DNA of 45,101 bases from Candidatus Poribacteria bacterium (GCA_028819845.1 JAPPKS010000022.1:1-45101), one strand, 5' to 3'; shown: positions 4,104 through 41,856, counted from the stretch's first letter. Numbers and translations are program-made. The notes: generated by a model from the sequence alone, not told the origin.

Positions 4104-5276
4104 TCAGAACGTTTGAAATTCCCCGTCGTGTGCTATCAATATGACGGGATCGTATACGGCGTCGCCGACTGAGTCGAAAGAGAAACTGCCTAGAATAGTC
4201 TTATAATCGCTCGTGGCAGCCAACGCCTCTTGAATCGCATGCGAATCAAATGAGTCCGCCTCAGAGACGGCATTCACCAGAAGTTTCACCGAAGTATACG
4301 CCAATGCACTGAAAACCGACGGCGGTTCACCGTATGCCGCGATGTAGTCCTGAACAAACACCTGATTCCCGGGTGTGTCTGCCGTACTCGTCCACACCGT
4401 AAAGGTAATTGCCCCTTCCGCGGCTGCGCCCGCCTGTTGCACCTCGCTCACACTCATCAGCGGAACGATAAAGGGCACATCGTCCGGAATCCCAACTTCG
4501 CGCCCCTGAACGAGTACCGTCGGCTGGTCAAACGTATTTGCCGCGACAAGAATGGCTTCAGGCTTCAAATCCCAAATCCGGGTCAGTTGGGGGCGGAGAT
4601 CCGCGTCGCGTGTGGTGAAGGTTTCTGTGCTCAAGACCTCGACGCCGAGCGCTGGGAGCGTCTCCGAATACACGGCGTGTGCGCTGCGGGAATACAGGTC
4701 TAGGCTGTCAGCTATTATGGCAACCTTTTGGTATCCAAGTCTTTCCTGTGTAAGCTGCACGCCGCGCGGAATCACTTTGTCCACAGTCAGGTTCACGCGA
4801 AACACAAAGTCGCCGAGAGCGCTCAATCCTTGCGATGCCGATGTCGGCGCGATTGCCACAATCCGGTTTGCCTCTGCCACAGGGAAGGCTATCTCGGTTA
4901 GAGTTGATGTAGCGGGACCCAACAGGGCAACCACTCCGTCCTCATGGATTAGCTTGTTGTATGCGGCGATCGCACCCTCCGGCGTACTCTGATTGTCCTC
5001 CACGATGAAGCGGATATGCCGCGCCGCGTCTTGTGCGCTGTTAATCTCGTCACGCGCAAAATAGAAGCCGTTTAGATACCTGACCAGGGCGGGATCGTCG
5101 GGACCGTCAACGAAGTCACCGGACAGCGGCATTACCACGCCGATGAGGAGTTCGTCCCGAACCGTGCCCGGTGTCTCGATGCCGGACAAATGCGTAGCTA
5201 GTTCTTCACAGCCGCAAAGCCCCACGATGAGCGCGGTGCTGATAAACAATAAACAGATTTTCGATATAGGATTCAC
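4104..5276 (-). CDS. solitary LivK-like substrate-binding lipoprotein
   Basis: Type 1 periplasmic binding protein of the branched-chain amino acid (LivK/LivJ) family, anchored as a lipoprotein. The start chosen is GTG at 5276: GGGAGG lies about 10 bp upstream, and an ATG at 5294 lies before that Shine-Dalgarno. The signal peptide ends in LCGC (lipid Cys at residue 23). Lobe 1 has FIVEDNQSTPEGAIAAYNKLIHEDGV and the ligand loop LGPATS; lobe 2 has IADSLDLYS; the C-terminal block is LGSFSFDSVGDAVYDP. It is clearly a relative of the eight-gene array at 26.7-36.9 kb, about 21 kb away, but lacks the final Glu and is more diverged. No permease or ATPase genes are next to it. The ligand is unknown. 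Confidence 0.85.
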   Translation of the reverse strand: MNPISKICLLFISTALIVGLCGCEELATHLSGIETPGTVRDELLIGVVMPLSGDFVDGPDDPALVRYLNGFYFARDEINSAQDAARHIRFIVEDNQSTPEGAIAAYNKLIHEDGVVALLGPATSTLTEIAFPVAEANRIVAIAPTSASQGLSALGDFVFRVNLTVDKVIPRGVQLTQERLGYQKVAIIADSLDLYSRSAHAVYSETLPALGVEVLSTETFTTRDADLRPQLTRIWDLKPEAILVAANTFDQPTVLVQGREVGIPDDVPFIVPLMSVSEVQQAGAAAEGAITFTVWTSTADTPGNQVFVQDYIAAYGEPPSVFSALAYTSVKLLVNAVSEADSFDSHAIQEALAATSDYKTILGSFSFDSVGDAVYDPVILIAHDGEFQTF

Positions 5277-5484
5277 TATAGTCGAACCTCCCATTTTTTT
5301 GAGTTAGTTGATGGATGGAAGATTCGAAAAGTTGGAACAGCGATGTCTCCGATTGTCCAATCTTCCACTCTGACCGGTGTTACTCCCATACTTTTTTGTT
5401 TTTATAGAACCATTCGCCGCAGGACAAGAGCGACCACCGGGGTTGGCATCCGAGAGATTCTCGTGCCCAATTGCGGCGCTGCCA

Positions 5485-26690: not shown

Positions 26691-27863
26691 TTACTCAAAG
26701 ACTTCGAATTCGCCATCTTTGACAATCAATACAATCGGGTCGTAAACGGCATCGCCAACTGCATTAAAAGAGAACTTACCCAGAACAGTGTCGAAATCTG
26801 TAATGTTTGCCAGTGCATCTCGAATTGCGTTGGGATCAGCCGATTGGGCATCGGCAATTGCCTTAGCGAGGATATAAACGGTGGCATATGATTGCGCTGC
26901 CCAAACGTCCGGTTCGATACCGTATGCTGCTTGGTAATTCTGAACGAAATCTCGATTTCCCGGTGTATCAGCGGTGCTGATCCAAGTGGTAAACGCGATC
27001 GCTCCTTCGGCGGCATCGCCCGCAGGTTGAATTTGGCCTGAGGAAAGCGTAAACATAATAAGGAACGGAACATCGGCGGGAATCCCAAGTTGGCGTCCTT
27101 GAATCAGGATCTCTGGGGTCTCTATCACCGTCGCCGAGATAAAGATGGCATCGGGATTTAAATCCTTGATGCGAGTCAATTGTGCGGAAAAGTCAGTCTC
27201 GCCGGTCTGGAAAGTCTCTGTAGTCAGAACCTCGACACCGTTCGCGGCGAGGGCTTCTTTCACAACAGCTTCGCTATCCGTGGAGAAGAGATCACTTTCA
27301 TCATATATGGTTGCTACTTTTTTGTAGCCGAGTTTTTCCTGCGTTATTCTGACACCGCTTGGAATCAATACATCCGTGGTGAGCGCGATGCGAAAGATGG
27401 AGTCGCCGATCGCGCTGAGGCCGCGGGCGGCAGAGGTGGGGCTTATCGCTACAATTCCATTCTTTTGCGCGATTGGAAACACTGTTTGCGCCTGCATTGA
27501 GGTGGCGGGGCCGAGGATGGCAGAAATGCCATCCTGATGAATCAATTTATTGAATGCTTCGACAGCGCCCTCAACGGTGCTCTGGTCATCCTCGACGATA
27601 AGTTTGATTTTCATGTTGTTGCGCTGCAAGTTATTAATCTCAGTGACAGCCAGTTCAAATCCCTGTCCCAGCGGCGGATTCTCTAAGCCAAGTCGTCCAG
27701 TGATAGGATGAACGGCGCCAATAGAAATCTCTCCGCTAAATTCTTCCATCTGAGGCGTCTCGGGGAGGATAAGTTGCTGAATCTGGTCACAGGCAGATAA
27801 CCCCGCAATCAGTGCAGCAATCACCAAGATTAACGCAGATGCGGCGAATTTTCGGGTTTTCAT
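26691..27863 (-). CDS. LivK-like substrate-binding lipoprotein, array member 1
   Basis: Type 1 binding protein of 390 residues with lipid Cys at residue 25 (LSAC). Lobe 1 has LIVEDDQSTVEGAVEAFNKLIHQDG and ligand loop LGPATS; lobe 2 has IYDESDLFS. The C terminus is GDAVYDPIVLIVKDGEFEVFE. In the family these loops hold the amino acid's carboxylate and amino groups. AAGGAGG precedes ATG 27863. It is the last gene of the array on the minus strand and lies 95 bp after member 2. No livHMGF genes are present, so it either borrows a distant transporter or acts as a receptor. Confidence 0.88.
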   Translation of the reverse strand: MKTRKFAASALILVIAALIAGLSACDQIQQLILPETPQMEEFSGEISIGAVHPITGRLGLENPPLGQGFELAVTEINNLQRNNMKIKLIVEDDQSTVEGAVEAFNKLIHQDGISAILGPATSMQAQTVFPIAQKNGIVAISPTSAARGLSAIGDSIFRIALTTDVLIPSGVRITQEKLGYKKVATIYDESDLFSTDSEAVVKEALAANGVEVLTTETFQTGETDFSAQLTRIKDLNPDAIFISATVIETPEILIQGRQLGIPADVPFLIMFTLSSGQIQPAGDAAEGAIAFTTWISTADTPGNRDFVQNYQAAYGIEPDVWAAQSYATVYILAKAIADAQSADPNAIRDALANITDFDTVLGKFSFNAVGDAVYDPIVLIVKDGEFEVFE

Positions 27864-27958
27864 CTTGTACCTCCTTGTTTTTTATAAAAGAGCGTGTTAT
27901 TCCTCTAGTCGAACACCGGCAGAGGGTGTTCCTACGAATCCTTCTGACATTTGGAGAC

Positions 27959-29128
27959 TTATTCAAAGACGCGCAATTCGCCGTTTTCGACAATCAGTAC
28001 CACGGGATCATAGACAGCATCGCCGACCGCGTCAAAAGAAAATTTACCTAAAATTGTGTCTAAATCTGTGGTATTCGCTAGTGCGTCACGAATCGCGGTT
28101 GAATCGGTGGATGGGATTTCTGAGGTTGCGTTTGCCAAGATGTGAATGGTGGCGTACGCCTGTGCCGCCCAAATACTGGGTGCGGAGCCGTATTTCGCAC
28201 TGTATTTCTGAACGTAAACACCATTTCCCGGAGTGTCTGCCGTATCGGCCCAGCTCGTAAAAGCTATCGCACCGTCTGCAGAATGACCCGCAGCTAGCAC
28301 ATCGGCTATTGTCAGCGTGTTAATGATAAACGTCACCGAATCGGGTATGCCGATTTTGTCAGCCTGAATCAGAATCTCAGGTTTATCCGGCGGCAACGCG
28401 GACACAAAAATGACATCGGGATTAAAGTTCTTGATTCGCCTCAATTGTGCGGAAAAATCGGAATCCCCGCTTTGGAAGGTTTCTGTGGTCAGAATCTCGA
28501 CACCATTTCTAGTGAGAGTGTCCCGCATCACCTCGGCGCCATCCGCTGAGAAGAGGTCCGTTTCATCATATACGATCGCTGCCTTCTGGTAGCCGAGTTT
28601 TGCTTGTGTCGCCGCAATGCCGCTGGTAATCAATACGTCTGTGGTGAGAATGGTGCGAAAGGCAAAATCACCGATCTCGCTCAGACCGCGGGCAGCGGCG
28701 GTGGCGCTAATTGCTACAACCCGACTCTGTTGCGCTATCGGAAACGCCGCTTCAGCCGCACTTGAAGAGCCCGGACCTAAGATAACGGACACACCATCTT
28801 GCTGAATCAGTTTATTGAAGGCTTCAACAGCGCCCTCCGGATCGCCTCGACTGTCCTCGGTGATATACCTGAGTTTTGTATCGCCAAGTTGTGAATTGTT
28901 AATCTCCTCGCGGGCTAGCTCAAAGCCGCGTCGCATTTCCATCCCAACGGAAGCAAGCCGCCCGGTGATAGGGTAGACAAGACCGATGGAGATTTCCTCA
29001 CCGAGTCCGTCCATCTGAGGAGATCCGGGACGCAAAAGTTGCTGAACCTGATCACAGGCGGAAAAAATCGCAGTCAGCGCCGCAATCACCAAGACTAACG
29101 CAAATCCGAAATCGTCTCTGCTACCCAT
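27959..29128 (-). CDS. LivK-like substrate-binding lipoprotein, array member 2
   Basis: 389 residues from ATG 29128, chosen because AAGGA lies 10 bp upstream and the lipid Cys then falls at residue 25 (FSAC) as in its paralogues. A longer frame starts within an inverted-repeat element and is rejected. The lobe 1 loop is LGPGSS and the lobe 2 segment VYDETDLFS. Unlike most paralogues it has YITEDSRGDPEGAVEAFNKL where others have IIEDDQSTVEG. The E1 repeat separates it from member 3. Confidence 0.87.
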   Translation of the reverse strand: MGSRDDFGFALVLVIAALTAIFSACDQVQQLLRPGSPQMDGLGEEISIGLVYPITGRLASVGMEMRRGFELAREEINNSQLGDTKLRYITEDSRGDPEGAVEAFNKLIQQDGVSVILGPGSSSAAEAAFPIAQQSRVVAISATAAARGLSEIGDFAFRTILTTDVLITSGIAATQAKLGYQKAAIVYDETDLFSADGAEVMRDTLTRNGVEILTTETFQSGDSDFSAQLRRIKNFNPDVIFVSALPPDKPEILIQADKIGIPDSVTFIINTLTIADVLAAGHSADGAIAFTSWADTADTPGNGVYVQKYSAKYGSAPSIWAAQAYATIHILANATSEIPSTDSTAIRDALANTTDLDTILGKFSFDAVGDAVYDPVVLIVENGELRVFE

Positions 29129-29154
29129 ATACTGTGATTCCTTTTCATCCTTAG

Positions 29155-29211
29155 AAAAACCGAGTTTTTCCACGGACACGAATGTCGATCCACAGCAAAA
29201 ACTCGGTTTTT
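29155..29211. repeat. inverted-repeat element E1
   Basis: Perfect 15-bp arms AAAAACCGAGTTTTT (29155-29169) and AAAAACTCGGTTTTT (29197-29211) flank 27 bp. It lies in the gap between array members 3 and 2 and can form a hairpin with a T-run on either strand, so it may also terminate transcription. Related to E2 and E3 near znuA. Confidence 0.75.
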
Positions 29212-29233
29212 GCCATTTGCATTGTCGAGGCGA

Positions 29234-30373
29234 TTACTCAAAAATCTTGAATTCACCGTTTTCGACAATTTGTACGATTGGGTCGTAAACGGCGTCCCCA
29301 ACATCATTAAAAGAGAATGCCCCTAGAACCGTGTCGAAATTTTTTGTGTTCGCGAGTGCATCCCGGATTGCGGTTGGATCGGTGGATTGGGCTTCCACAA
29401 TCGCCGCCGCAACAATATAAACCGCGGCATGTGACTGCGCGGTCCAAGCGTTTGGCTCACTCCCGTACGCCGCGCGGTAATTCTCGACGAAGGCAGCATT
29501 CCCCGGTGTATCCGCCGTGCTAATCCAACCCGCAAAAGAGATGGATCCCTTGGCGGCCTCGCCTGCGTTTTCGATATCGCTGATGAGACTAGTAATATAG
29601 GGAATTTCGGTGGAAATCTCAAGCTGGCGTCCTTGAACCTGAATTTCGATTAACTCCGGTTGTTGCGCTGCGATAAAGATGGCTTCAGGATTTGCTTCCT
29701 TTATCCGAGCCAATTGGGCGGAAAAATCGGTGTCGCCGCTTTGGAAAGTTTCTGTAATCAAAATCTTAACGCCAATCTCCGTAAGCGTGTCTTTGAACTT
29801 TTCGTAGCTATCTATAGAGTAGGAATCAATATCATCATATATAATCGCTGCCCGTTGATAACCAATTTTCGCATGCGTCGCCCTGACGCCGCTAGGGAGC
29901 AGGATGTCTGTAGTGAGTCCGGCGCGGAACAGAAAATCCCCAAGCGCGCTAAGGCCGGTTGCATTTGAGGATGAACTAAAAGCCACAACTCCATTCTGTT
30001 GCGCGATTGGAAACGCCGCTTCGGCTTGACCTGAAGTTGTGGGGCCAAAAATAACAGGCACATCCGCACCAATCAGTTTATTGTAGGCTTCGACGGCGCC
30101 CTCAACGGTGCTTTGGTCGTCTTCGACGATGAACGTGAAGCTTACATCGCCTTGTTGTGAACTGTTAATCTCCTCAAGAGCCAATTCAAAGCCGCGTTGT
30201 ATCGGTAGTGCAAACGTGTCAAGCCGCCCGGTGACTGGGTAGACGAGACCAATGTTAATCTCTCCACTGAGCCCATCCGTTTGAGACATATCACTATCAC
30301 ATCCAGAAAACCAAATCATCAACCCCACAATCGTCAAGACAAACAGGAATCTGATACTACTACTAAAATTCAA
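29234..30373 (-). CDS. LivK-like substrate-binding lipoprotein, array member 3 (TTG start)
   Basis: 379 residues, the shortest of the array. The start codon is TTG (30373), 7 bp after AAGGAGG, and the Cys of FSGC is residue 25, supporting it. The linker after the Cys is only about 10 residues, shorter than in the paralogues. The lobe 1 loop is FGPTTS and lobe 2 has IYDDIDSYS. The C terminus is VGDAVYDPIVQIVENGEFKIFE. The TTG start may lower its translation relative to its neighbours. Confidence 0.87.
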   Translation of the reverse strand: MNFSSSIRFLFVLTIVGLMIWFSGCDSDMSQTDGLSGEINIGLVYPVTGRLDTFALPIQRGFELALEEINSSQQGDVSFTFIVEDDQSTVEGAVEAYNKLIGADVPVIFGPTTSGQAEAAFPIAQQNGVVAFSSSSNATGLSALGDFLFRAGLTTDILLPSGVRATHAKIGYQRAAIIYDDIDSYSIDSYEKFKDTLTEIGVKILITETFQSGDTDFSAQLARIKEANPEAIFIAAQQPELIEIQVQGRQLEISTEIPYITSLISDIENAGEAAKGSISFAGWISTADTPGNAAFVENYRAAYGSEPNAWTAQSHAAVYIVAAAIVEAQSTDPTAIRDALANTKNFDTVLGAFSFNDVGDAVYDPIVQIVENGEFKIFE

Positions 30374-30445
30374 TGTAATCCTCCTTACTTTTTTCCTGTA
30401 ACCCCAATTATTCTATATACTCTACTCCTCCTACGTTTTGGAGGT

Positions 30446-31618
30446 TTACTCGAAGATTACCAATTGACCGTTCATCACAATCAATATCTTCGGGTCGTAA
30501 ATGGCATCTCCGACCGCGTCAAAAGAGAATTTACCGAAAACAGTGTCGAAATCTGTTATATTTGCCAATCCGTCTCTAATTGCGGTTGAGTCAGTGGATT
30601 GGGCGTTGGCAATGGCTTCCGCCAAAATGTGCAGACCGGCATACCACCGGGCCGTGTAGTTGCTCGGCTCCTCCCCGTATTTGGCGCTATAGTTCTGGAC
30701 GAAGGCACTATTTCCCGGTGTGTCAGCCGTGCTAGCCCAACCTACAAAGGTGATCGCCCCTTCTGCAGCATCACCCGCCGCGCTAACGTCTGCCGTGGTC
30801 AAGGTGCGTACAACAAACGGAACTGAGTCGGGTATTCCGAGTTGGCGGCCTTGCATCAGGATACCCGGTTTTTCCGGCGATAACGAGGAGATAAAGATAA
30901 TGTCGGGATTCGCGTCCCTTATCCGAGATAATTGTTCGCTAAAGTCGGTGTCGCCGCCACGAAAGGTCTCTGTGAGCAACACTTCGACGCTGTTCGCGGC
31001 AAGTGCTTCCCTCACCGCCTCATCGCTATCTGTGGAGAACACATCGCTTTCATCGTAAAACGTTGCCGCTGTTTTATAGCCGAGTGTTGCCAAAGTCGCC
31101 TCAATGCCGCTCGGAATCAGCACCTCAGTGGTAAGCGCGGCACGAAAGATAAAATCGCCAATCGCGCTCAGACCCCGCGCGGCGGAGCTGGGGCTAAAAG
31201 CTACGACCTGGTTTTCTTGCGCTATCGGAAACGCCGCTTTGGCCTGACTTGACGTGGCAGGTCCGAGGATAACCGGCACGCCATCCTGCTCAATCAGCTT
31301 ATTGTATGCTTCAACGGCGCCTTCCACAGTGCTCTGGTCGTCCTCTATAATCAGCTTGATACTCCTATCTCCGAGTTTTGAATTGTTAACCTCTTCGAGC
31401 GCTAATTCAAGGCCTTTTTCATTTGGATTGCCAAACGTCGAGGCGAATCGCCCTGTAATTGATAAGACGACGCCGACGGGAATCTCACCATCAAGTTCTT
31501 CCATCTGAGGCGGTGCAGGGGTGAGAAGTTGCTGAAGCTGGTCGCAGGCGGAAAGTCCCGCCATCAGGAAGACAGTTGACAGTAAATAGGCGTAAATTTT
31601 TATTCTTCTGACATTCAT
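30446..31618 (-). CDS. LivK-like substrate-binding lipoprotein, array member 4
   Basis: 390 residues, ATG 31618 after AAGGAGG. Lipid Cys at residue 25 (LSAC), then DQLQQLL as in members 1 and 2. Loops LGPATS (lobe 1) and FYDESDVFS (lobe 2). ETFRGGDTDFSEQLSRIRDANPDIIF and ILMQGRQLGIPDSVPFVV follow the family. It lies behind the strong terminator at 31647-31693, so it needs its own promoter or read-through. Confidence 0.88.
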   Translation of the reverse strand: MNVRRIKIYAYLLSTVFLMAGLSACDQLQQLLTPAPPQMEELDGEIPVGVVLSITGRFASTFGNPNEKGLELALEEVNNSKLGDRSIKLIIEDDQSTVEGAVEAYNKLIEQDGVPVILGPATSSQAKAAFPIAQENQVVAFSPSSAARGLSAIGDFIFRAALTTEVLIPSGIEATLATLGYKTAATFYDESDVFSTDSDEAVREALAANSVEVLLTETFRGGDTDFSEQLSRIRDANPDIIFISSLSPEKPGILMQGRQLGIPDSVPFVVRTLTTADVSAAGDAAEGAITFVGWASTADTPGNSAFVQNYSAKYGEEPSNYTARWYAGLHILAEAIANAQSTDSTAIRDGLANITDFDTVFGKFSFDAVGDAIYDPKILIVMNGQLVIFE

Positions 31619-31646
31619 GTTGCACCTCCTTGTTTTGAAATTAAAA

Positions 31647-31693
31647 AATCAGGCGTGGGACAGTTCGAGGAAACCCGTCCCGCAATCCTGATT
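31647..31693 (-). terminator. rho-independent terminator between array members 5 and 4
   Basis: On the minus strand AATCAGG pairs with CCTGATT and GGGAC with GTCCC in one long hairpin, followed by TTTTTTAATTT. It shows that the array is not one uninterrupted transcript. Confidence 0.75.
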
Positions 31694-31794
31694 CATCGAG
31701 ATATTAATATTCAGATAGGTTGTTTAAATTGAGGTGCCCGCCATCATCCTCCTACTAATGGCGAGCGCCGGTCGCACACGTCCGTCGTCGAGGT

Positions 31795-32976
31795 TTACTC
31801 GAAGACCTCCAATTGGCCGTTCCTGACAATCAGAATCTTGGGATCATAAATGGCATCACCGTTCTCGTCAAAAGAGAAGGTTCCCATAATTGTGTCAAAA
31901 TCGCTGATACCTTCCAATGCGTTACGAATCGATACCGCATCCGTCGCATTCGCCTTCGTAATCGCCTCATTGAGAATGTAGAGCGTCGCATACGACTGCG
32001 CCGCCCAAGGATTGGGATTGGCGTCGTAAGTCGCTCGGTAATTCTGTACGAATTCTTGATTCCCAAGAGTCGACGTATGACTGCCCCACCCCGTAAAGCT
32101 GATAACTCCCTCTGCGGAATCCGCCATACCTGCCTCAACCAAGGCGTCCACCTCAATATTAGACAATTCAGGAATTATGAGATGCACCGAAGGAGTGATT
32201 CCCAGTTCGCGGCTTTGAATCAGAATTGGAGTCATCTCTCCTGCTAGAACTGACGCAAAGATAGCTTGAGGGTCAGATTCCATTAACCGGCCTAATACGT
32301 CTGCAAAGTCAGTTTCCCTGCTTTTGCTGTCGATTTCTTCTGTTGCAACAATATTAACGTTGTTTGCTGTGAGCGCTTCCGTCAAATCATCATGTCCGAT
32401 TGTGGAATAGGTATCGGCGCCATCAAATATGGTTGCCACCCGCTCGTACTTTAACACTTCCTGCGTAATCATGACGCCGGGAGGGTTTAGCCGAGAAGTG
32501 ATTAACCCGGCGCGGAAGTTAAAATCACCAGCTTCATTAATGCCAGAGGCTGAGGAGGTGGAGCTAAAACCTACAACACCGTGTTCATTGGCGACGAGGG
32601 AAGTCTCTTCGAACTGTGATGAAAAACCGGGACCGAGAATGACAGGTACGTTATACTCTTCAATAAGTGCGTTAAAGGCAGTGACCGCGCCTTCTACAGT
32701 AGCACCATCATCTTTTGGGATAATCCTGAATTGTTCTTCGGCTGCACGTGAACTATTTAACTCTTTTGCCGCCAATTTAAAGCCGTTTAACATAGGTTCA
32801 CCGAAATTGGCAGCATAGTCACCCGAGAGCGGCAAGACCACGCCAATGGGAACCCCTTCCGCTTCCGGTTCGGGTGGAATTAGAATTTGCCCTAGCTGGT
32901 CACAGGCGGATAGTCCTATCATCAATAAAACTAAGGCGAATACATATGTTAATAATCTAATCGGACTTGCACTCAT
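31795..32976 (-). CDS. LivK-like substrate-binding lipoprotein, array member 5
   Basis: 393 residues, ATG 32976 after AAGGAG. Lipid Cys at residue 25 (LSAC). It is more diverged than members 1-4: the lobe 1 segment is IIPKDDGATVEGAVTAFNALIEEYNV with loop LGPGFS, lobe 2 has IFDGADTYS, and there is an inserted EEIDSKSRETDFADVL. FTGWGSHTSTLGNQEFVQNY replaces the common STADTPGN block. The C terminus GDAIYDPKILIVRNGQLEVFE matches member 4, which suggests gene conversion or recent shared ancestry at the 3' end. Confidence 0.87.
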   Translation of the reverse strand: MSASPIRLLTYVFALVLLMIGLSACDQLGQILIPPEPEAEGVPIGVVLPLSGDYAANFGEPMLNGFKLAAKELNSSRAAEEQFRIIPKDDGATVEGAVTAFNALIEEYNVPVILGPGFSSQFEETSLVANEHGVVGFSSTSSASGINEAGDFNFRAGLITSRLNPPGVMITQEVLKYERVATIFDGADTYSTIGHDDLTEALTANNVNIVATEEIDSKSRETDFADVLGRLMESDPQAIFASVLAGEMTPILIQSRELGITPSVHLIIPELSNIEVDALVEAGMADSAEGVISFTGWGSHTSTLGNQEFVQNYRATYDANPNPWAAQSYATLYILNEAITKANATDAVSIRNALEGISDFDTIMGTFSFDENGDAIYDPKILIVRNGQLEVFE

Positions 32977-33176
32977 GTTGAATCTCCTTTTTATGGTTTC
33001 TGATTGAGTTGATAACGCTGTAATTTAAAGTCACCCACAATAAAAGCGATGTTCTTTTTGGATAACACGTGTCGTTTTGAAAAAATCTCACAGTTTTCGA
33101 TCGGCCAATCTAATTTGCATCCATTCCGCAATCAGGTTGTACACACCAACTACCAGGTTTCTTCCTGGATCGGAGC

Positions 33177-34334
33177 CTACTCGAATGCTTTAAATTCCCC
33201 GTTTTTGAAAATTAATACTTGCGGGTCGTAAACCGCATCGCCAACGGCGTCAAAAGAGAATTGGCCTAGAATAGTGTCGAAATTTATAGTATTTGCCAAT
33301 GCGTCTCGAATCGCAGTTGAATCAGTGGATTGGGCATCCGCGATCGCTGCGGCGAGGATGTAAAGCACTGCATACGATTGTGCTGCCCATGCGTTCGGTT
33401 CCGTGCCGTATGCCGCCCGATAATTTTGGACGAAGGCACCATTGCCAGGTGTCGGTTTGATACTAGACCACGCTATAAGGGAAATCGCACCCTCCGCGGC
33501 AGGCCCCGCGCCTTGTACCAGCGCTTGGGACAATTGAGGTATAATGAAAGGAACCAAGTTGGGTATACCGAGATCGCGGCCTTGCGTGAGAATCAGGGGT
33601 ATCTCCTTTGGTAGGGCTGTGCAGAAAATTGCGTCAGGATTTGTTTCCTTAATCAGAGTTAATTGTACAGAAAAGTCGGTATTGCCGGTTTGGATGGTTT
33701 GCGTCGTAAGTACCTCAACACCGTGTTCCGCAAGCGCATCCAAGAACGCTTCATTGCTATTCGTAGAGAAGAGATCGGTCTCATCATAAATGGTTGCCGC
33801 TCTTTTATAGCCGAGTATTTCCTGAGTTATTTTGACCCCATTGGAATTTAGCTCATCAACGGTGAGGGAGGCACGGAAGATATAGTCCCCAATCGCGCTG
33901 AGGCCGGGGGCGGTGGAAACAGGACTAAACGCCACGACGCGGTTTTCTTGCGCGATAGGAAACGCTTCCTTGGCTTGGGTTGAGACAGCAAGCCCCGTGA
34001 TAACGGATACGCCGTCTTCATGTATCAACTTGTTAAATGCTTCAACGGCGCTCACGCTCTGATCGTCCTCGGTAATGAACCTGATTTTTGCATCACCGAG
34101 TTGGCCTGAACTGTTAATCTCCGCGCGAGCAAGTTCAAATCCGTTTTGCATCGGTTTCCCAAGCTCGTCAGCGAATTGCCCGGTCAGGGCAAGGACGACG
34201 CCAATGCGAATTTCACCAGCAATGCCTGTGGTCTGAGGCGAATCGTCGAGCGATTCCCCACATCCGGAAAGTCCTACAATCAGTGTGATAATCGGCAACA
34301 CAAACGTGATTAATATGATTCTTCCAACGTTCAC
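33177..34334 (-). CDS. LivK-like substrate-binding lipoprotein, array member 6 (GTG start)
   Basis: 385 residues from GTG 34334. The start is decided by the paralogues: VNVGR aligns with MNVRR/MNVSR, the Cys of LSGC is then residue 25, and GGGGATTCAGC upstream is a decayed copy of the AGGAGATTCAAC leader seen in members 5 and 8. Upstream in-frame Met codons lie in the terminator region. The lobe 1 segment lacks two residues (EDDQSVSAVEAFNKL) and its ligand loop is TGLAVS instead of LGPATS. Lobe 2 has IYDETDLFS. Confidence 0.85.
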   Translation of the reverse strand: MNVGRIILITFVLPIITLIVGLSGCGESLDDSPQTTGIAGEIRIGVVLALTGQFADELGKPMQNGFELARAEINSSGQLGDAKIRFITEDDQSVSAVEAFNKLIHEDGVSVITGLAVSTQAKEAFPIAQENRVVAFSPVSTAPGLSAIGDYIFRASLTVDELNSNGVKITQEILGYKRAATIYDETDLFSTNSNEAFLDALAEHGVEVLTTQTIQTGNTDFSVQLTLIKETNPDAIFCTALPKEIPLILTQGRDLGIPNLVPFIIPQLSQALVQGAGPAAEGAISLIAWSSIKPTPGNGAFVQNYRAAYGTEPNAWAAQSYAVLYILAAAIADAQSTDSTAIRDALANTINFDTILGQFSFDAVGDAVYDPQVLIFKNGEFKAFE

Positions 34335-34375
34335 GCTGAATCCCCGCGTCTTTATTGAAGGCATTATTAAACTCA

Positions 34376-34414
34376 AAGAGCCTGCCATCATTCGCTAGCT
34401 GATGACAGGCTCTT
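34376..34414 (-). terminator. terminator hairpin between array members 7 and 6
   Basis: AAGAGCCTGTCATC and GATGGCAGGCTCTT pair over 13 of 14 positions on the minus strand, followed by TGAGTTT. A related CCTGTCATC/GATGACAGG hairpin stands between members 8 and 7, so the spacers were duplicated with the genes. Confidence 0.65.
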
Positions 34415-34440
34415 CGGTTACGTACATCTACCGCTGAAGG

Positions 34441-35601
34441 TTACTCAAACGCCACAAGCTCACCGTTTTGAACGGTTAGTACAATCGGGTCGTAAACTGC
34501 GTCTCCGACTGCATCAAAAGAGAAATTCCCCATAACGGTGGGGAAATCCATGATATTCGCGAGAGCGTCCCGAACTGCAGCTGCCTCGGTGGATTGTGCA
34601 TTCTCAATTGCTTCCGCTAGTATATACAGGGTAGCGTAGGACTGTGCCGCCCAGGGATCGGCTTCGATGCCGTATTTCGCTAAGTAATTCTCGACGAAGG
34701 CTTGATTACCCGGTGTGTTAGACGACGCACTCCAATTGGTAAAAGTAATCGCTCCTTCGGCGGCTTCTCCCGCGATTTGTACTTCGTTTCCGGTCAGATC
34801 GGGAACAATGTACGGAACAGAGGCAGGGATACCGACCTCACGCCCTTGAGTCATAATATCAGTCATCTGGACGGATAAGGCGGAGATAAAGATAGCTTGA
34901 GGATCTGTCTCCATTATCCGAGTTAAATGTGGCCTAAGATCAGCAGGCTTGCCTTCGAAGGCCTCTGTAATCACAATATCGACACCACTAGCAGTAAGGG
35001 CTTTGCTCACCTCCTCGTTGCTACTCGTGGAATAGACATCGTCCTTATCATAAATCAGCGCCGCCCGTTGGTAACCGAGTTTCTCCTGACTTACCCGAAT
35101 ACCCTCCGGATTTAGGACATTTGTGGGGAGCCCTGTACGGAAGACAAAATCGCTAAGCGCGCTAAGACCGGCAGCGGAAGCAAGCGAGCTAAAACATACA
35201 ATTTCGTTTTCTTCTATTATTGGAATTAACGCTGTCAGCTGAGTTGAGAAAGTGACACCGGTGATAATGGAAACACCATCTTCATGAATCAGCTTGTTAA
35301 AGGCTGCAGTCGCACCCTCAATAGTGCTCTGATCGTCTTCAATGATGAATGTGATTTGCGAGCCGCCGAGTTGGTTAATCTCTTCTTGCGCGAGCTCAAA
35401 ACCGCGTTTCATGGGTAAACCGTACCGGGCGGCGTCTTCGCCTTCGAGCTGCAGAGAGACGCCGATAGTAATCTCGCCAAGCCCATCCATATCAGGCGGC
35501 GGGATGAGAAGTTCCCCAAGCTGGTCACAAGCGGATAGCCCCGCAATCAGCGCGGCAATCGCCAATATAGATGCGAATTTCGTGAATCTTCTAACGTTCA
35601 T
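34441..35601 (-). CDS. LivK-like substrate-binding lipoprotein, array member 7
   Basis: 386 residues, ATG 35601 after AAGGAGG. Lipid Cys at residue 25 (LSAC), then DQLGELL. The lobe 1 loop is TGVTFS and lobe 2 has IYDKDDVYS. It shares ALSVQMTDIMTQGREVGIPASVPYIVP style blocks with the family but reads GVSLQLEGEDAARYGLPMKRG at its start. Members 6-8 share the TGxxxS loop and so form a subgroup likely to bind a different ligand from members 1-5. Confidence 0.88.
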   Translation of the reverse strand: MNVRRFTKFASILAIAALIAGLSACDQLGELLIPPPDMDGLGEITIGVSLQLEGEDAARYGLPMKRGFELAQEEINQLGGSQITFIIEDDQSTIEGATAAFNKLIHEDGVSIITGVTFSTQLTALIPIIEENEIVCFSSLASAAGLSALSDFVFRTGLPTNVLNPEGIRVSQEKLGYQRAALIYDKDDVYSTSSNEEVSKALTASGVDIVITEAFEGKPADLRPHLTRIMETDPQAIFISALSVQMTDIMTQGREVGIPASVPYIVPDLTGNEVQIAGEAAEGAITFTNWSASSNTPGNQAFVENYLAKYGIEADPWAAQSYATLYILAEAIENAQSTEAAAVRDALANIMDFPTVMGNFSFDAVGDAVYDPIVLTVQNGELVAFE

Positions 35602-35700
35602 TTAAAACCTCCTTGGGTTTGAAGGGATTAGGCGGGGCAGCACCAAGACTATATTGGTAACCCCGTTGATTGATAATTGGAATAGGTTATTAAATTTTCC

Positions 35701-35738
35701 GAAGCCCTGTCATACGCTAAAAAATGATGACAGGGTTC
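35701..35738 (-). terminator. terminator-like hairpin between array members 8 and 7
   Basis: CCCTGTCAT (35705-35713) pairs with ATGACAGGG (35727-35735), extended by GAA/TTC with one bulge. Only a weak T-rich tail follows on the minus strand. Confidence 0.5.
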
Positions 35739-35764
35739 CGATCGTGCACATCCGGCGATGAAGA

Positions 35765-36928
35765 TTACTCAAAAAGTACAAACTCGCCGTTTTGGACGGT
35801 AAGCAGTATTGGGTCGTAAACTGCGTCCCCGACTTCATCAAAGGAGAAATTTCCTAGAATGGTAGTGAAATCCATGGTGTCCGCCAAAGCGCCCTGAATC
35901 GCCGTTGCCTCAATGGATTGTGTATTCGCAATTGCCGCGGCGAGAATACGCAGCGTGGCATAGGATTGCGCCGCCCAAGCGACCGGTTCCTCCCCGTTGT
36001 TCGCCTCGGTGTAACTCTGGATGAAGGCTGCATTCCCCGGCGTGTCCTTTTCGATGAACCAACCTATAGAAGTAACCGTCCCTTCAGAGGCATCGCCCGC
36101 ACCTGCCGCCACCTCAATATCGGTCAGCTCGGGGACAATTAGGTATACCGAAGGCATTAGGTCGCGCGCTTTTTTCATAATTTCAGGAATGTCCCCTGTT
36201 AGCGTGGAGATAAAGAGGGCATCAGGATTTAATTCCGATATCCGAGTTACTGCCGCGTCATAGTCGCCGGCTGGGTAAGCCTCTGTAGTCGCAACGTTGA
36301 CACCGTTCATGTCGAGCGCAGCTCTGAATGCTTCGTCGCTCAATCTGGAATAGGTATCGCCATCAAGGTATATCGTAGCTGCCGTCTCGTACCCAAATCT
36401 CTCGTGCGTCGCTTGGACAAGAGGCGGGTTAAGCAGACTTGAGTTGAGTCCTGAGCGGAAGGTAAAATTGCCGCGCCCTTCCAATACCGGGGCAGATGAC
36501 ACTGAGCTAAAAAGGACAACCCCGCTGTCTTGGGCAGTTTGAGTTACCTGTTCGAGTTGACTGGAGACAGCGAATCCGGTAATCACAGACACCCCATATT
36601 GATTAATCAATTGATCGACAACATCAACGGTAGTCTCACGGGAACTCATGTCATCCTTAACGATGAGCTTGAGTTGTGAATCTCCGAGCATGCCTGAATT
36701 GTTGATATGGTCGCGAGCGAGCTCAAAGCCTTTTTTCATCGGTATGCCATAACCGGTAGCGTTCGCCCCTGTCTCGTCTACAACCACGCCAATGAGAATT
36801 TCATCAGGAAGCCCCTCCATCTCGGGCGGCGGGAAGAGTTGATTAAGCTGGTCACAAGCGGAGAGTCCTGCAATCAGCGCGACAATCGCCAATACAAACG
36901 TGAACTTGGTAAATCTACTAACATTCAT
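35765..36928 (-). CDS. LivK-like substrate-binding lipoprotein, array member 8 (first in transcription order)
   Basis: 387 residues, ATG 36928 after AAAGGAG. Lipid Cys at residue 25 (LSAC). The lobe 1 segment is LIVKDDMSSRETTVDVVDQLINQYGV with loop TGFAVS; lobe 2 has IYLDGDTYS. It lacks the ILIQGRQLGIP block, reading EIMKKARDLMPSVYLIVP. It is the most diverged intact member in lobe 2, yet keeps DFTTILGNFSFDEVGDAVYDPILLTVQNGEFVLFE at the C terminus. A possible promoter lies at 37117-37145. Confidence 0.88.
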   Translation of the reverse strand: MNVSRFTKFTFVLAIVALIAGLSACDQLNQLFPPPEMEGLPDEILIGVVVDETGANATGYGIPMKKGFELARDHINNSGMLGDSQLKLIVKDDMSSRETTVDVVDQLINQYGVSVITGFAVSSQLEQVTQTAQDSGVVLFSSVSSAPVLEGRGNFTFRSGLNSSLLNPPLVQATHERFGYETAATIYLDGDTYSRLSDEAFRAALDMNGVNVATTEAYPAGDYDAAVTRISELNPDALFISTLTGDIPEIMKKARDLMPSVYLIVPELTDIEVAAGAGDASEGTVTSIGWFIEKDTPGNAAFIQSYTEANNGEEPVAWAAQSYATLRILAAAIANTQSIEATAIQGALADTMDFTTILGNFSFDEVGDAVYDPILLTVQNGEFVLFE

Positions 36929-37186: not shown

Positions 37187-37378
37187 TCAACTATTCGAAG
37201 ACCTCAAATTAACGTCTTTCACAATCAATACAATCGGGTCACAAATCACGTCCCCATCGGCGCCGAAAGCAAACTTTCCGAGGACGATGTCGGTTTCGTT
37301 GAAATCCACCAACCCGCCGCGGATCGCATTTGACTCCGACGATTGGGTGTTTACAAACCTTGCTTCAAATAAACGCAT
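37187..37378 (-). pseudogene. decayed ninth LivK-like gene (C-terminal remnant)
   Basis: The minus strand encodes NTQSSESNAIRGGLVDF, ETDIVLGKFAFGADGDVICDPIVLIVKD, which matches the C-terminal block of the array (AQSTDSTAIRDALANI, DFDTILGKFSFDAVGDAVYDPIVLIVKDGE). A missing base after IVLIVKD shifts the frame; in the shifted frame the expected EVFE and stop follow. The N-terminal 330 or so residues are gone. Confidence 0.8.
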
Positions 37379-37484: not shown

Positions 37485-37982
37485 TCATCGGCAGACCGAG
37501 CAGATGCCGAGAATCTCGATTACTCTGGATTGAACCTGAAAGTCAAGTTTCTCGGCGGCGGCAGTGATACACTTCTCAATCGTGTGACTGACAAGCTCAG
37601 TTGCCTCGCCGCACAATTTGCAGACGACAAACTGTCCGCGATGGGGTTCCTGTGGGAAGTCACACCCGATATAGGCGTTTAACGAGGCAATCCTGTGAAT
37701 CAGACCTTGCTCAAGCAGAAATTCGAGGGCGCGGTAGACGGTTGGCGGTGCGGTTTTGCGGCCGCGTTTTTGAAAGGTGTCAAGAATATCGTACGCGCCG
37801 ATGGGTTTGTGGCTGGCGCACACGAGTTCAAAAACCTGTTTCCGCAGCTCGGTAAATCGCACGCCGCGCGCCTTACAGATTGCCAAACCGTTTGCCAATG
37901 CGTCTCGGACGCACCGAGAATGGTCATGGGTTGGCTTGGGAAAGGTTTCAAACGTTGTGTTTTCCGAATCCGTAGAAGACAT
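37485..37982 (-). CDS. zur: Fur-family zinc regulator (Zur)
   Basis: A 165-residue DNA-binding metalloregulator. The winged helix spans about residues 25-105 (FTELRKQVFELVCASHKPIGAYDIL, TAPPTVYRALEFLLEQGLIHRI). The dimerisation and metal domain has HRGQFVVCKLCGEA (first CxxC) and ends LGICSVCR (second CxxC), the structural zinc site; the His residues in PHRGQF fit the regulatory site. GLIHRIASLNAYIGC resembles Zur rather than Fur or PerR. An AAGGAG lies about 10 bp before ATG 37982. Its own -10 region is overlapped by a Zur-like palindrome, and the divergent znuA promoter carries a near-perfect Zur box, so it probably represses both when zinc is plentiful. Confidence 0.85.
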   Translation of the reverse strand: MSSTDSENTTFETFPKPTHDHSRCVRDALANGLAICKARGVRFTELRKQVFELVCASHKPIGAYDILDTFQKRGRKTAPPTVYRALEFLLEQGLIHRIASLNAYIGCDFPQEPHRGQFVVCKLCGEATELVSHTIEKCITAAAEKLDFQVQSRVIEILGICSVCR

Positions 37983-38011
37983 AACCCTAGCTCCTTGTAA
38001 CTGAAGGTGTA

Positions 38012-38031
38012 CGTTATGTTATGACGTAACG
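38012..38031. promoter_or_regulatory. imperfect Zur box in the zur promoter
   Basis: CGTTATGTTATGACGTAACG is an imperfect palindrome sharing ATGTTAT and TAAC with the Zur consensus. On the minus strand TTGACA (38044-38039) and TAACAT (38021-38016) are spaced by 17 bp, and the box covers the -10. This implies autoregulation. Confidence 0.6.
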
Positions 38032-38146
38032 CCGTGATTGTCAATGAAATCAAATCGTCTTGCCTTTTAGTGGAATAAGAACGAGTCTTGTTTTCTCGGT
38101 TAAAGGTTGAGTCAACGCCTCTAACCTAGAAAATACCATTTTTGAC

Positions 38147-38182
38147 TTGACTCTTGACAATGTTATGTTATAATATAACATA
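38147..38182 (+). promoter_or_regulatory. znuA promoter with Zur operator
   Basis: TATGTTATAATATAACATA (38164-38182) is a perfect 9-1-9 palindrome containing the proteobacterial Zur consensus ATGTTATANTATAACAT without a mismatch. TTGACT (38147-38152) and TATAAT (38169-38174), spaced by 16 bp, form a promoter whose -10 lies inside the operator, so bound Zur would block RNA polymerase. Confidence 0.8.
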
Positions 38183-38208
38183 TTTGAAAGCAAGTGTGAT
38201 ACTATTGC

Positions 38209-38304
38209 ATAACGCAAGTTACTACCTTTGTCCGACGAGGTATAGAAACCGAGTTTATTACAACGAAATTTCGCAGACGCGAACCAAAAACTCGGTTTTT
38301 CTAT
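38209..38304. repeat. inverted-repeat element E2 with upstream direct repeat
   Basis: ATAACGCAAGTTACTACCT (38209-38227) precedes ATAG-AAACCGAGTTT (38242-38256) and its counterpart AAACTCGGTTTTTCTAT ending at 38304. It is a hairpin-forming element of the same family as E1 and lies in the znuA leader. Confidence 0.7.
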
Positions 38305-38372
38305 CATATTTGACTTTTAACCCCCTAAATCCCTCATCAAGGGGACTTATGAACGCGTTACGTAAGTCCTAA

Positions 38373-38495
38373 ATAACGCAAGTTGCTACCTATTACGGAG
38401 AAACCGAGTTTTTGGTTCAGGTTCGCCCTATTATAAGTACCTTGGTCTGATTTGCGCCAATATCGTGATTCGATATCGGAAAAAACTCGGTTTCT
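38373..38495. repeat. inverted-repeat element E3 with upstream direct repeat
   Basis: ATAACGCAAGTTGCTACCT (38373-38391, one mismatch to the E2 copy) precedes perfect 15-bp arms AGAAACCGAGTTTTT (38399-38413) and AAAAACTCGGTTTCT (38481-38495). The right arm ends 62 bp before the znuA start. Between E2 and E3 I see no gene. Confidence 0.75.
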
Positions 38496-38557
38496 GTGCT
38501 CCTGTTGAAAATGGCGGCAACTTGGGTTTTATAACAAATTCACAAGGAGTTGACAGC

Positions 38558-39538
38558 ATGGATCGGCAAATTCTCAAGACGAGTTTATGTTTGTTGGTGT
38601 TACTGCTGGTGGTTGCCGGTGGATGTCAAAAGGATAAATCGGAAGACCCCGCAAATGCAAACCCTACGGCAGAGAAAAAACTTCGCGTCGCCGCAACAAT
38701 CAGCATGATTACGGACATTGTGGAAAACATTGGCCGAGATAGGATTGACGTCACCGGGATTGTCGGTGAAGGCGTTGACCCGCATCTCTATAAACCGACA
38801 GCGGGAGATGTCGAACGGCTGAAGGACGCTGAGATTATCTTCTACAACGGTTTGTATCTTGAATCGAAAATCATAGGCGCTGTCCTCGATAAGATGGCGT
38901 ATAAAACGAAGGCAGTCGCCGTCACGGCTGGGACTCTACGCTCACAACTTCGCACAACATCTGAATTTCAGGGCGGTTACGACCCGCATGTCTGGCACGA
39001 TGTGTCGCTCTGGATGAAAGCAGCTGAAAAGGTTCGAGACACGTTGGCTCAAGCCGACCCGGATAATGCCGAATATTATCTTTCTAACGCGAAGAGATAC
39101 TTGGCAGCGTTGAAAACATTGCATGACGACCTACAATACCTCGCGGCACAGATTCCCGCCCAGCGCCGCGTTCTCGTCACGACCCACGATGCGTTCGGTT
39201 ACTTCGGACGCGCTTACGGTTTCGAGGTGCGCGGGCTTCAAGGGTTGAACACAGAAACGGAAGCGGGCGTCGCCGATGTCAGAGATCTAGCGGCGTATAT
39301 TATTGAACATCGAATCCCCGCGATGTTCGTCGAAACTTCAACCCCGTCTCAGGGCATAGAGGCTGTTCAAGCCGCTGTTCGCGCAAAGGGGTTCGAGGTC
39401 CAAATCGGCGGCAGGCTTTTCGCCGATGCGATGGGAACGCCCGGAACTCCTCAAGGGACGTATATCGGGATGACACGCCACAACATAGATACCATCGTGG
39501 ACGCCTTAAGAGTTGAGTTAGCTTATCGGAGGCAATGA
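38558..39538 (+). CDS. znuA: zinc/manganese ABC transporter substrate-binding lipoprotein (ZnuA/TroA family)
   Basis: A 326-residue cluster A-I metal-binding protein, anchored through the Cys of VVAGGC (residue 23). The four ligands expected in this family are visible: His in DPHLYKP, His in DPHVWHD, Glu in FVETSTP and Asp in LFADAMG. This His2-Glu-Asp set is shared by TroA and PsaA, so zinc or manganese are both possible; the Zur box argues for zinc. The His-rich loop of many ZnuA proteins is absent. The start is ATG 38558 with AAGGAG upstream; a longer in-frame extension from 38465 lies within element E3 and is rejected. A COG0523 gene follows after 12 bp, in place of the usual znuB/znuC, which are not in this window. 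Confidence 0.9.
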   Translation: MDRQILKTSLCLLVLLLVVAGGCQKDKSEDPANANPTAEKKLRVAATISMITDIVENIGRDRIDVTGIVGEGVDPHLYKPTAGDVERLKDAEIIFYNGLYLESKIIGAVLDKMAYKTKAVAVTAGTLRSQLRTTSEFQGGYDPHVWHDVSLWMKAAEKVRDTLAQADPDNAEYYLSNAKRYLAALKTLHDDLQYLAAQIPAQRRVLVTTHDAFGYFGRAYGFEVRGLQGLNTETEAGVADVRDLAAYIIEHRIPAMFVETSTPSQGIEAVQAAVRAKGFEVQIGGRLFADAMGTPGTPQGTYIGMTRHNIDTIVDALRVELAYRRQ

Positions 39539-39550
39539 AGACATAAGAAG

Positions 39551-40678
39551 ATGGCTGAAATCCAAGACTTCAAAGAACCGATTCCGGTGACCATCATCAG
39601 CGGCTTTTTAGGCGCGGGCAAAACCTCCCTGCTCAACCACATTCTGAATGCCGACCACGGATTGCGCGTGGCGGTATTGGTCAACGATTTTGGAGAGGTT
39701 AACATTGACGCCGGATTAATCTCTGGTGTCTCTGGGGAATCTACCATAAACCTTTCCAACGGGTGTATCTGCTGCTCAATTCGCGGCGACCTGCTTGAGG
39801 CCGTGGTAGAATTGATTCAACGTCCAGATCCGCCGGAGTATATCGTCCTTGAGACCAGCGGCGTTTCCGACCCTTTGGCGGTTTCATTGACCTTCCTGGC
39901 GCGCGAATTGCGGTCGAGCGTGCGAGTGGACAGTATGCTAACAGTGGTTGATTCCGAGCAAATCTATCATGTAGACAGAAAGCATCGGGAGCTCGCGTTA
40001 GATCAAATCGCTGTGGCAGATATTGTGGTGCTGAACAAGGTTGACTTGGTCAATGATGAAAAACGGGCGGAATTGGCAGACTTCGTCAAAAACCTTGTTC
40101 CGAGAGCGCGAATCTTGGAAGCCGCGCACGGCAAGGTTCCGCTCGATTTGGTGCTCGGCGTAGGGAAATACGACCTCCACCGCTTTTCGGGGAAATCGGG
40201 CTTGGATGTTCACGTCCACCCCGACGGGGAAGCGCACGGCGTCGAGGATGAACACCATCACGAACACGACCATACATTGGTCTTTAATACGTGTAGTTAT
40301 ACGACCGAGAAACCGCTGTCACATCGGGCAGTGCGTCATGCGGTGAAAACTTTGCCGCCGGCGATCTACCGCGCCAAAGGGGTTGTCTATCTCAAAGAGA
40401 CTCCGGATCGAAAGGGAATCGTCCAAGTTGTCGGCCAACGGGCGCGTGTCATCATTGGTGCGCCATGGGATGATGAGAAACCGGGCACGCAGTTAGTCTT
40501 TATCGGTGAGCCTGGTGGAATTGACCATGGCGAGTTGCAGTCTCGATTTGATGCGTGCGAAACGAAAAATGACACGCACCAGGTTATCGCGCATGATGCC
40601 GCCGCCGATTTTGAATTACTTCGAGAGCTTTTTCTGGAAGAACCGCCAACGAATTCACACGATCCAACTGATTCTTAA
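39551..40678 (+). CDS. COG0523 (CobW/ZNG1-type) GTPase, zinc-linked
   Basis: G3E-family P-loop GTPase of 375 residues thought to hand zinc to client proteins. Seen: Walker A GFLGAGKT (residues 18-25), the CxCC metal motif GCICCS (72-75), LETSGVSDP (Walker B/switch), and LNKVD for guanine near 165. A His/Asp/Glu-rich linker (HVHPDGEAHGVEDEHHHEHD, about 223-243) suits metal buffering. The C-terminal CobW_C domain has FNTCSYTTEKPLSHRAV and GVVYLKETPDRKGIVQVVG. Cotranscription with znuA (12 bp apart) under a Zur box indicates a role in zinc starvation. It differs from the second COG0523 protein (42137-43489) by having the His-rich linker in place of a long inserted beta domain. Confidence 0.92.
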   Translation: MAEIQDFKEPIPVTIISGFLGAGKTSLLNHILNADHGLRVAVLVNDFGEVNIDAGLISGVSGESTINLSNGCICCSIRGDLLEAVVELIQRPDPPEYIVLETSGVSDPLAVSLTFLARELRSSVRVDSMLTVVDSEQIYHVDRKHRELALDQIAVADIVVLNKVDLVNDEKRAELADFVKNLVPRARILEAAHGKVPLDLVLGVGKYDLHRFSGKSGLDVHVHPDGEAHGVEDEHHHEHDHTLVFNTCSYTTEKPLSHRAVRHAVKTLPPAIYRAKGVVYLKETPDRKGIVQVVGQRARVIIGAPWDDEKPGTQLVFIGEPGGIDHGELQSRFDACETKNDTHQVIAHDAAADFELLRELFLEEPPTNSHDPTDS

Positions 40679-40711
40679 CTTCATAAATGAGCTTAAAATA
40701 ACGCCGATAGA

Positions 40712-40752
40712 ATTCATCACTACGCTTGAATGTCATCGGCATAGTGATGAAT
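40712..40752 (+). promoter_or_regulatory. inverted repeat between the COG0523 and ferredoxin genes
   Basis: ATTCATCACTA (40712-40722) and TAGTGATGAAT (40742-40752) form a perfect 11-bp stem around 19 nt, with CCG/CGG beyond. No T-run follows, so attenuation, RNA processing or a repeat is as likely as termination. Confidence 0.5.
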
Positions 40753-40790
40753 CGGTATATTCGCACTGATGTAACATTCGGGAGCAAGGT

Positions 40791-41282
40791 ATGGGAGCAG
40801 ATGGAATCGAATCGCCGGTCAAACTGGCGTCAAGGCGGCGTGTCTTAGCGCATATACTGGTCTGTAAAGGTTGTTGTTGCGGCGTGACAGAGAAACGAAA
40901 TCCGCCGGTACCGGTCGAATGGATCAAACAGGAGTGGCGGAACAGGCGGCTGTCCCCTTCAATAACATTGACAATCAGCGAAGGCTGCCTTGGACCGTGC
41001 GATGTCGCAAATGTCGTCTGTATCACATCACTGCACGGCGTCGTGTGGTTAGGACAGATAGAACGCCATCTGCACTATACGCGGCTTGTTGATTGGGCGG
41101 ACGCCGTGGCAAGAACTGATGCGCTGCTTCCGTTGCCGTCAGCCTTTGATAGTCACCGTTTTGATCGTTTTCGATCTCCCTCGTTCCGATTTCAGAAAAA
41201 ACAAGCAGCCCGTGATTTGCAAAGCTTCAACGTGCCAAGCGTTCGCCGGGCAGGTTCCCCTCGTACGGATATACTGAATTGA
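40791..41282 (+). CDS. thioredoxin-like (2Fe-2S) ferredoxin domain protein
   Basis: A 163-residue cytoplasmic protein. HILVCKGCCCGVTEKRNPPVPVEWIKQEW carries Cys25, 28, 29 and 30. ISEGCLGPCDVANVV carries Cys66 and Cys70, the CxxxC half of a thioredoxin-like 2Fe-2S cluster site (COG3411-like). WLGQIERHLHYTRLVDWADAV completes the domain at about residue 115. The Pro/Ser/Arg-rich tail (120-163) is not conserved-looking. The common form of the motif is ISGCLGPC; here one extra residue (SEGC) is present. GGAG precedes ATG 40791. Its place between two COG0523 GTPases suggests a redox or cluster partner in metal allocation; this is inference. Confidence 0.75.
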   Translation: MGADGIESPVKLASRRRVLAHILVCKGCCCGVTEKRNPPVPVEWIKQEWRNRRLSPSITLTISEGCLGPCDVANVVCITSLHGVVWLGQIERHLHYTRLVDWADAVARTDALLPLPSAFDSHRFDRFRSPSFRFQKKQAARDLQSFNVPSVRRAGSPRTDILN

Positions 41283-41357
41283 TACGAGCTAGGCTACGGA
41301 CGGTGTAGAGGACTCTGCAACTCGTTGGCGCAGTTCCGTACGTGCGTCCCGCAGCCT

Positions 41358-41412
41358 AGAGACCGCAGACTTGAGAAAAATCCGGTCAGAATCGTGTGCG
41401 ATGACCGATTCG
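41358..41412 (+). repeat. 55-bp direct repeat, copy 1
   Basis: 48 of 55 bases are identical to copy 2 at 41744-41798. Both contain CGGTCA and TGACCG (here 41383-41388 and 41402-41407) able to pair around a 13-nt interior. It lies 63 bp upstream of the small lipoprotein ATG (41476). Confidence 0.75.
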
Positions 41413-41433
41413 GCGCCAACTCTAGGGACTGTA

Positions 41434-41454
41434 CCGCAAACTGTTAGTTTGCGG
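41434..41454 (+). promoter_or_regulatory. hairpin just before the lipoprotein Shine-Dalgarno
   Basis: CCGCAAACT and AGTTTGCGG form a perfect 9-bp stem with a 3-nt loop, ending 8 bp before AAAGGAG. It could influence translation of the gene at 41476 or be a dispersed palindrome. Confidence 0.55.
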
Positions 41455-41475
41455 CCTATTTCAAAGGAGCATTCC

Positions 41476-41712: not shown

Positions 41713-41743
41713 TCCCGGGCCGGGTACGCAACCTCCACAGAAC

Positions 41744-41798: not shown

Positions 41799-41856
41799 TG
41801 GCGAAATTTCAGGTATTAAAACAGCATCATATGCTTGGAAAGGAGGCAATACAACC

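Follow-up and report, generated by a model that had tools for sequence, protein, structure and literature searches.

How a bacterium comes to keep a row of binding-protein genes with no transporter beside them is the question raised by a 45,101-base stretch of DNA from a Candidatus Poribacteria bacterium (GCA_028819845.1, JAPPKS010000022.1:1-45101). This stretch, hereafter the window, is the whole of contig C5 of a 4.61 Mb draft genome that is 96.6% complete; sequence beyond its ends is not visible. Between positions 26691 and 36928 its minus strand carries eight intact Peripla_BP_6 (LivK-like) lipoprotein genes, S1 to S8, arranged head to tail, and the closest named relatives of their products come from Poribacteria bins. 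The array is a real but moderately unusual repertoire for nutrient capture (or sensing) that is inherited between species and is under selection. We consider it probable, with moderate confidence, that these HAAT-fold lipoproteins form an ancient set passed on vertically, each member having a fixed ligand and all of them acting as interchangeable capture proteins for a shared permease.

The array encodes eight HAAT-fold lipoproteins

All eight products, of 379–393 amino acids, matched the Peripla_BP_6 profile (PF13458) with E-values of 1e-45 to 2e-62 and 155–213 bits against a cut-off of 31.7, and the only domain matches of the array proteins were to Peripla_BP_6, ANF_receptor and Peripla_BP_5. 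The genes are separated by 72–200 nucleotides, and six of the eight are preceded by a clear AGGAG-type ribosome site. A preliminary description of the window, made from the sequence alone, had reported eight intact paralogues on one strand with the lipid-bearing cysteine at residue 25. This holds for 8/8 given internal starts for S3 (33177..34334; GTG at 34334, with the longest open reading frame (ORF) extending to 34391) and S7 (27959..29128; ATG at 29128, longest ORF extending to 29179); S6 (29234..30373) starts with TTG. AlphaFold2 models with pLDDT values of 90.9 (S8, 26691..27863) and 92.9 revealed the two-lobed fold of periplasmic binding proteins. The S8 model best matched the Anabaena HAAT protein in the PDB (4obb/4nv3; E 1.8e-30, TM 0.81–0.86).

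The mature N-terminus is CDQ in 46/64 lipobox-bearing relatives. In enterobacteria, lipoproteins with a CDQ start are retained at the inner membrane; by analogy with this sorting rule, which comes from another phylum, the array lipoproteins are probably anchored to the inner membrane. Against the NCBIfam LivJ/K-type model NF011933, S8, S6 and S1 scored 90–105 bits, below its cut-off of 477, and three array members scored 47–86 bits against the UrtA model TIGR03407 (cut-off 492.75). The array proteins do not belong to the TctC/Bug protein family.

The members are old and vertically inherited

In a gene tree of 74 proteins the window members did not group with one another but with their orthologues in other genomes. 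S1 to S7 fell in the starred groups of the tree, with SH-aLRT values of 98–100, and S8 was more weakly placed, at 85–90. For S4, the orthologues found all belong to another family (G009, G012). The paralogues are 42–63% identical, and synonymous divergence (dS) between them is mostly above 1 and near saturation. The ratio of nonsynonymous to synonymous divergence (dN/dS) was 0.10–0.32 for orthologue pairs whose dS is finite, which leaves aside one S4 pair at saturation; present-day selection on the orthologues is purifying.

Arrays of 8, 7, 5, 3, 6 and 6 genes occur in other Poribacteria, and four such domains occur in a Latescibacteria bin. The order S3-S5-S6-S7-S8 is kept in the sister genomes G006, G001 and G004, as far as the members are present there. 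The S1-S2 pair has a different history. In G006, G001 and PCPOR2b it lies at a Rieske/cytochrome b/cytochrome c locus, where G004 has S2 alone, and contig C19 of the present genome carries the same respiratory locus without S1-S2, fewer than 400 bases separating the neighbouring genes. The pair has therefore changed place, in one direction or the other. The array also has other flanks here than in the sister genomes, and it has thus moved as a block as well. In three poribacterial loci (L108 8570-11167, L109 8470-11167 and L121 8438-11149) the S1/S2 orthologues sit inside the cytochrome cluster, with a sodium:dicarboxylate symporter gene adjoining.

These observations bear on the origin first proposed for the array, local duplication with selection for new ligands, if that is read as a recent event under diversifying selection that still continues. 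The tandem head-to-tail arrangement would fit such an origin, as would pocket loops that differ between paralogues. However, paralogues of this age, with near-saturated dS and with orthologues of S3 and S5–S8 that keep their order and relative position in sister genomes, are not a recent burst, and the dN/dS values do not suggest diversifying selection. A purely local origin is likewise at odds with the movement of S1-S2 as a pair from or to another locus, and with S4 orthologues in another family. We regard recent duplication as highly improbable; every member that has close orthologues contradicts it, and only S4 and a Glu-to-Gln change in the window S3 leave room for later change.

Cleft loops are fixed within orthologues and differ between paralogues

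The ligand loops are LGPATS, LGPGSS, FGPTTS, LGPGFS, TGLAVS, TGVTFS and TGFAVS, as first listed; LGPATS occurs in both S5 and S8, giving seven loops for eight proteins. The YDxxDxxS segment of lobe 2 does differ between members as described, but it is not universal: S1 has YLDGDTYS and S4 has FDGADTYS. Seven cleft-facing loops were defined from the secondary structure of the S8 model and an alignment to LivJ-type structures. Within orthologues these loops are more conserved than the rest of the protein (85% identity against 80% elsewhere), which also argues against ongoing diversification, whereas between paralogues they are less conserved (46% against 59%). The within-minus-between difference in identity was 0.39 for the cleft loops, 0.21 elsewhere and 0.17 for other loops. 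When the loop mask was shifted circularly along the alignment, the true position alone reached this contrast (1/346; 0/345 other shifts). Pocket residues are thus not invariant across the paralogues. The selection for new ligands proposed earlier is borne out in that the cleft has diversified between paralogues; that event is old, and selection now is purifying. The pattern supports ligand diversification that is now fixed per paralogue.

The pockets were further characterized at LivJ positions T102, Y150 and E226, which have an established role in ligand binding and which were read off an alignment with the leucine-binding protein, where the numbering is correct. Class A comprises S1 (35765..36928; Ser, Tyr and Glu at 102, 150 and 226), S2 (34441..35601; Ser, Tyr, Asp) and S4 (31795..32976; Ser, Tyr, Glu), the last being the most divergent member of the array. 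In class B, formed by S5 (30446..31618), S7 and S8, the same columns hold Ala (then Arg), Phe and Thr, the last S8 position being uncertain owing to one inserted residue. S6, as class C, has Asn, Tyr and a deletion in the 226 loop. The window S3 has Gln where 3/3 sister orthologues have Glu, and Thr where both readable sisters have Ser; we infer that S3 was ancestrally class A. As a positive control, the LivK encoded beside LivHM in a sister genome has Thr, Tyr and Asp at the signature columns.

Judged by these residues, class A ligands would be alpha-amino acids. For class B and S6 the ligands, oxo acids or other carboxylates for example, probably lack an ammonium group, because the LivJ signature positions are replaced (in S6 by Asn together with the loop deletion). 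The Anabaena protein was crystallised with an oxo acid (4obb) and its N280D mutant with valine (4nv3), and by analogy this comparison suggests non-ammonium ligands for class B.

The contrast in the cleft loops also bears on a dosage or storage role, in which the members would capture one common ligand class redundantly and be kept for the binding capacity they provide where nutrients are scarce or competition is strong. The fold, lipobox and C-terminal block are common to all members, and amino-acid and LivK-type solute-binding proteins (SBPs) rank with the proteins detected most in a metaproteome of a sponge, where they were not assigned to Poribacteria (PMC6081418). Paralogue-specific fixation concentrated in the cleft loops is unexpected for a single ligand, however, and we consider this role improbable.

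Binding proteins outnumber candidate transporters

A scan of window ORFs turned up no ABC permease or ATPase among them, in agreement with the preliminary description. LivH, LivM, LivG and LivF genes were found neither in the window nor in the flanks of the arrays of same-family relatives, so that no Liv transporter adjoins the array here or in those relatives.

The genome has 18 Peripla_BP_6 genes and five BPD_transp_2 permeases. A livHMGF search proposed in the preliminary description found no LivH; one transporter of the same class is present, however, as UrtABCDE on contig C21. This is the one complete HAAT-class transporter found, with its own UrtA (578.6 bits, above the cut-off). Two of the five permeases belong to it, and the other three look NupPQ- and RbsC-type by sequence. 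PF12399, which marks LivG/UrtD-type ATPases, matched at the Urt locus only. The NupPQ-type permeases (C22 and C14, both at contig ends) are possible partners, since BPD_transp_2 permeases also lie convergent to the array in G009 and G012, but were set aside as less likely ones, as two Bmp-type SBPs of their usual family are present.

A LivK-LivH-LivM locus is present in the three sister genomes examined (G006, G005 and G001). No LivH orthologue was found in this assembly, where 282 bases separate the expected flanking gene from the end of contig C9, whose tail is rich in repeats. An assembly gap may hide LivHM here; loss is not claimed, since C9 ends at the expected site. With 18 SBPs to one HAAT core, and arrays of 3–8 genes in relatives, the family shows the proportions of an orphan expansion. 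The idea of a repertoire rather than one transporter thus stands, the array being orphan locally and almost so genome-wide.

A shared permease is the favoured exit route

In the mechanism we propose, membrane-anchored lipoproteins would capture different solutes, each fixed to its own ligand, with two main predicted ligand types: amino acids for class A and non-amino-acids for class B. Once loaded, the proteins would deliver their ligand to a common HAAT permease/ATPase core in the inner membrane, or to a few such cores, with genes elsewhere in the genome; this is the least certain step. A shared HAAT permease core would be the simplest exit route; UrtBCDE is present, and LivHM is present in three sister genomes. 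LivJ and LivK of E. coli offer a parallel in that they share one permease.

Several observations weigh against this mechanism. The Glu/Gln difference between the window S3 and its sisters means that pocket class can change inside an orthologue group. LivHM was not found here, though C9 ends where it would begin. The numbers of SBPs and permeases are uncorrelated across 24 genomes (rho 0.27, p 0.20), a result that fits shared use but also fits the absence of any transporter link. The UrtA of this genome is soluble and 20–25% identical to the array proteins, so docking of the array proteins on UrtBC is a guess.

A signalling or regulatory repertoire would do without a pump: host or dissolved metabolites would be bound and reported to sensor kinases or other membrane partners. 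Most array-type SBPs do lack a cognate pump, and the HAAT fold also serves as a receptor, with AmiC and the GABA-B receptor matching by sequence or fold. Some SBP copies also lie near genes for ECF sigma-WD40 fusions (21313-24150; L029), but this family is abundant and occurs whether or not SBPs are close by. No SBP reading frame among the 18 greatly exceeds the length of a single SBP, and the MCP domain (PF00015) had no match in the 96.6%-complete genome. Chemoreceptors are therefore an unlikely route for the sensing suggested at the outset; within the limits of the assembly, a chemotaxis role is excluded. Overall we consider signalling unlikely, if less so than a dosage role.

We offer a broader interpretation only tentatively. 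The array may be part of a many-receptor, one-pump (or no-pump) system in a sponge-associated lineage, an order-conserved array whose clefts are split between amino-acid and non-amino-acid ligands, with each member kept by selection for a different sponge metabolite and acting through a shared permease or signalling.

Comparison with known systems

LivJ and LivK (HAAT, PF13458) have the same fold, domain family and lobe layout as the array proteins, and class A keeps Tyr150, Thr/Ser102 and the acid at 226. They differ in that the array proteins are 24–30% identical to the sister LivK, livHMGF does not adjoin the array, and classes B and C have lost the amino-acid signature. The Anabaena HAAT protein (4obb/4nqr/4nv3), in which one acidic cleft position separates the oxo-acid and valine complexes, is the best sequence and fold match of S8; at approximately 25% identity it is, as far as tested, not an array member. 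UrtABCDE shares the SBP domain family and is complete on C21, but UrtA is soluble and permease-linked, unlike the array proteins. On the same contig (L025, 13805-15544) an AAA ATPase gene with a weak match to an antiphage MAD3 model lies between urtD and urtE, and behind it the C-terminal tail motif of UrtD occurs a second time; the gene appears to have been inserted into the urt operon.

The nearest known parallel is an array of nine orphan TTT SBP genes in Rhodoplanes. Rhodoplanes sp. Z2-YC6860 has 434 TTT/Bug (TctC) SBP genes, nine of which form this one array and are mostly less than 50% identical, and the TTT SBP expansion of Bordetella has few membrane components (PMC5994714). As in those orphan expansions, SBPs far outnumber permeases here, arrays are tandem with low identity, and genes have moved around the chromosome. 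The TTT expansions differ in SBP family, in a transporter class that is not ABC, and in their far larger numbers; the poribacterial array is set apart by its ABC-linked HAAT family, its phylum, its lipid anchoring and its orthologous conservation.

The papers on Poribacteria that a literature search returned contain no description of the array. Poribacteria, a sponge-associated phylum, are uncultured, and genomes are the main basis for inferring what they obtain from their host; conserved binding proteins with predicted ligand classes provide a testable list of eight soluble domains. The array would extend orphan-SBP expansion, known from the proteobacterial TTT systems, to the ABC-linked LivK family in another phylum, where its members are long-standing orthologues rather than the outcome of a recent burst.

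Other family members and neighbouring genes

The eight members first counted are real, but two relatives in the window had been missed. One is a dispersed ninth Peripla_BP_6 lipoprotein paralogue on the minus strand (4104..5294), whose closest relative is L075 in G004 (57%). The other, upstream of S1 on the same strand (37202..37378), is what remains of the C-terminal part of one more array gene that has decayed; it has no full ORF and is 56% identical to S8 over 46 amino acids (E 1.6e-10). Elsewhere in the genome, contig C11 carries a second S5 copy and contig C15 an SBP copy with three in-frame stops. The SBP family thus gains and loses members.

An Rfam scan for riboswitches or other RNA control returned two tRNAs and nothing else, and promoter and terminator scans gave signals near chance level. 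A mobile or phage origin was set aside, S8 having no PHROG match.

Beside the array, a Fur-family regulator gene lies divergent from an AztC/ZnuA-type zinc SBP gene, followed by two CobW-type GTPase genes (together 37485-39538 and 39551-43489). These are likely a zinc-starvation (Zur) cluster; no permease gene was identified for it in the window. The ECF sigma-WD40 fusion at 21313-24150 is 945 amino acids long and has a relative of 1225 amino acids (L029 11082-14759) near another SBP pair; this fusion family recurs many times in the genomes examined.

The same lipoprotein family occurs in Gemmatimonadota (L122, L124, L128), Latescibacteria (L107, L110, L117, L126) and Bacteroidetes (L127) bins. 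These relatives are 52–63% identical to S8, or 33% in the Bacteroidetes bin, and their occurrence hints at transfer between symbionts or at bin contamination. In a Latescibacteria bin (L107 9563-15145) and at G015:C22:15521-17602, single frames of approximately 750–840 amino acids carry tandem double binding-protein domains, or one domain with a long extension, and are possible fused double SBPs.

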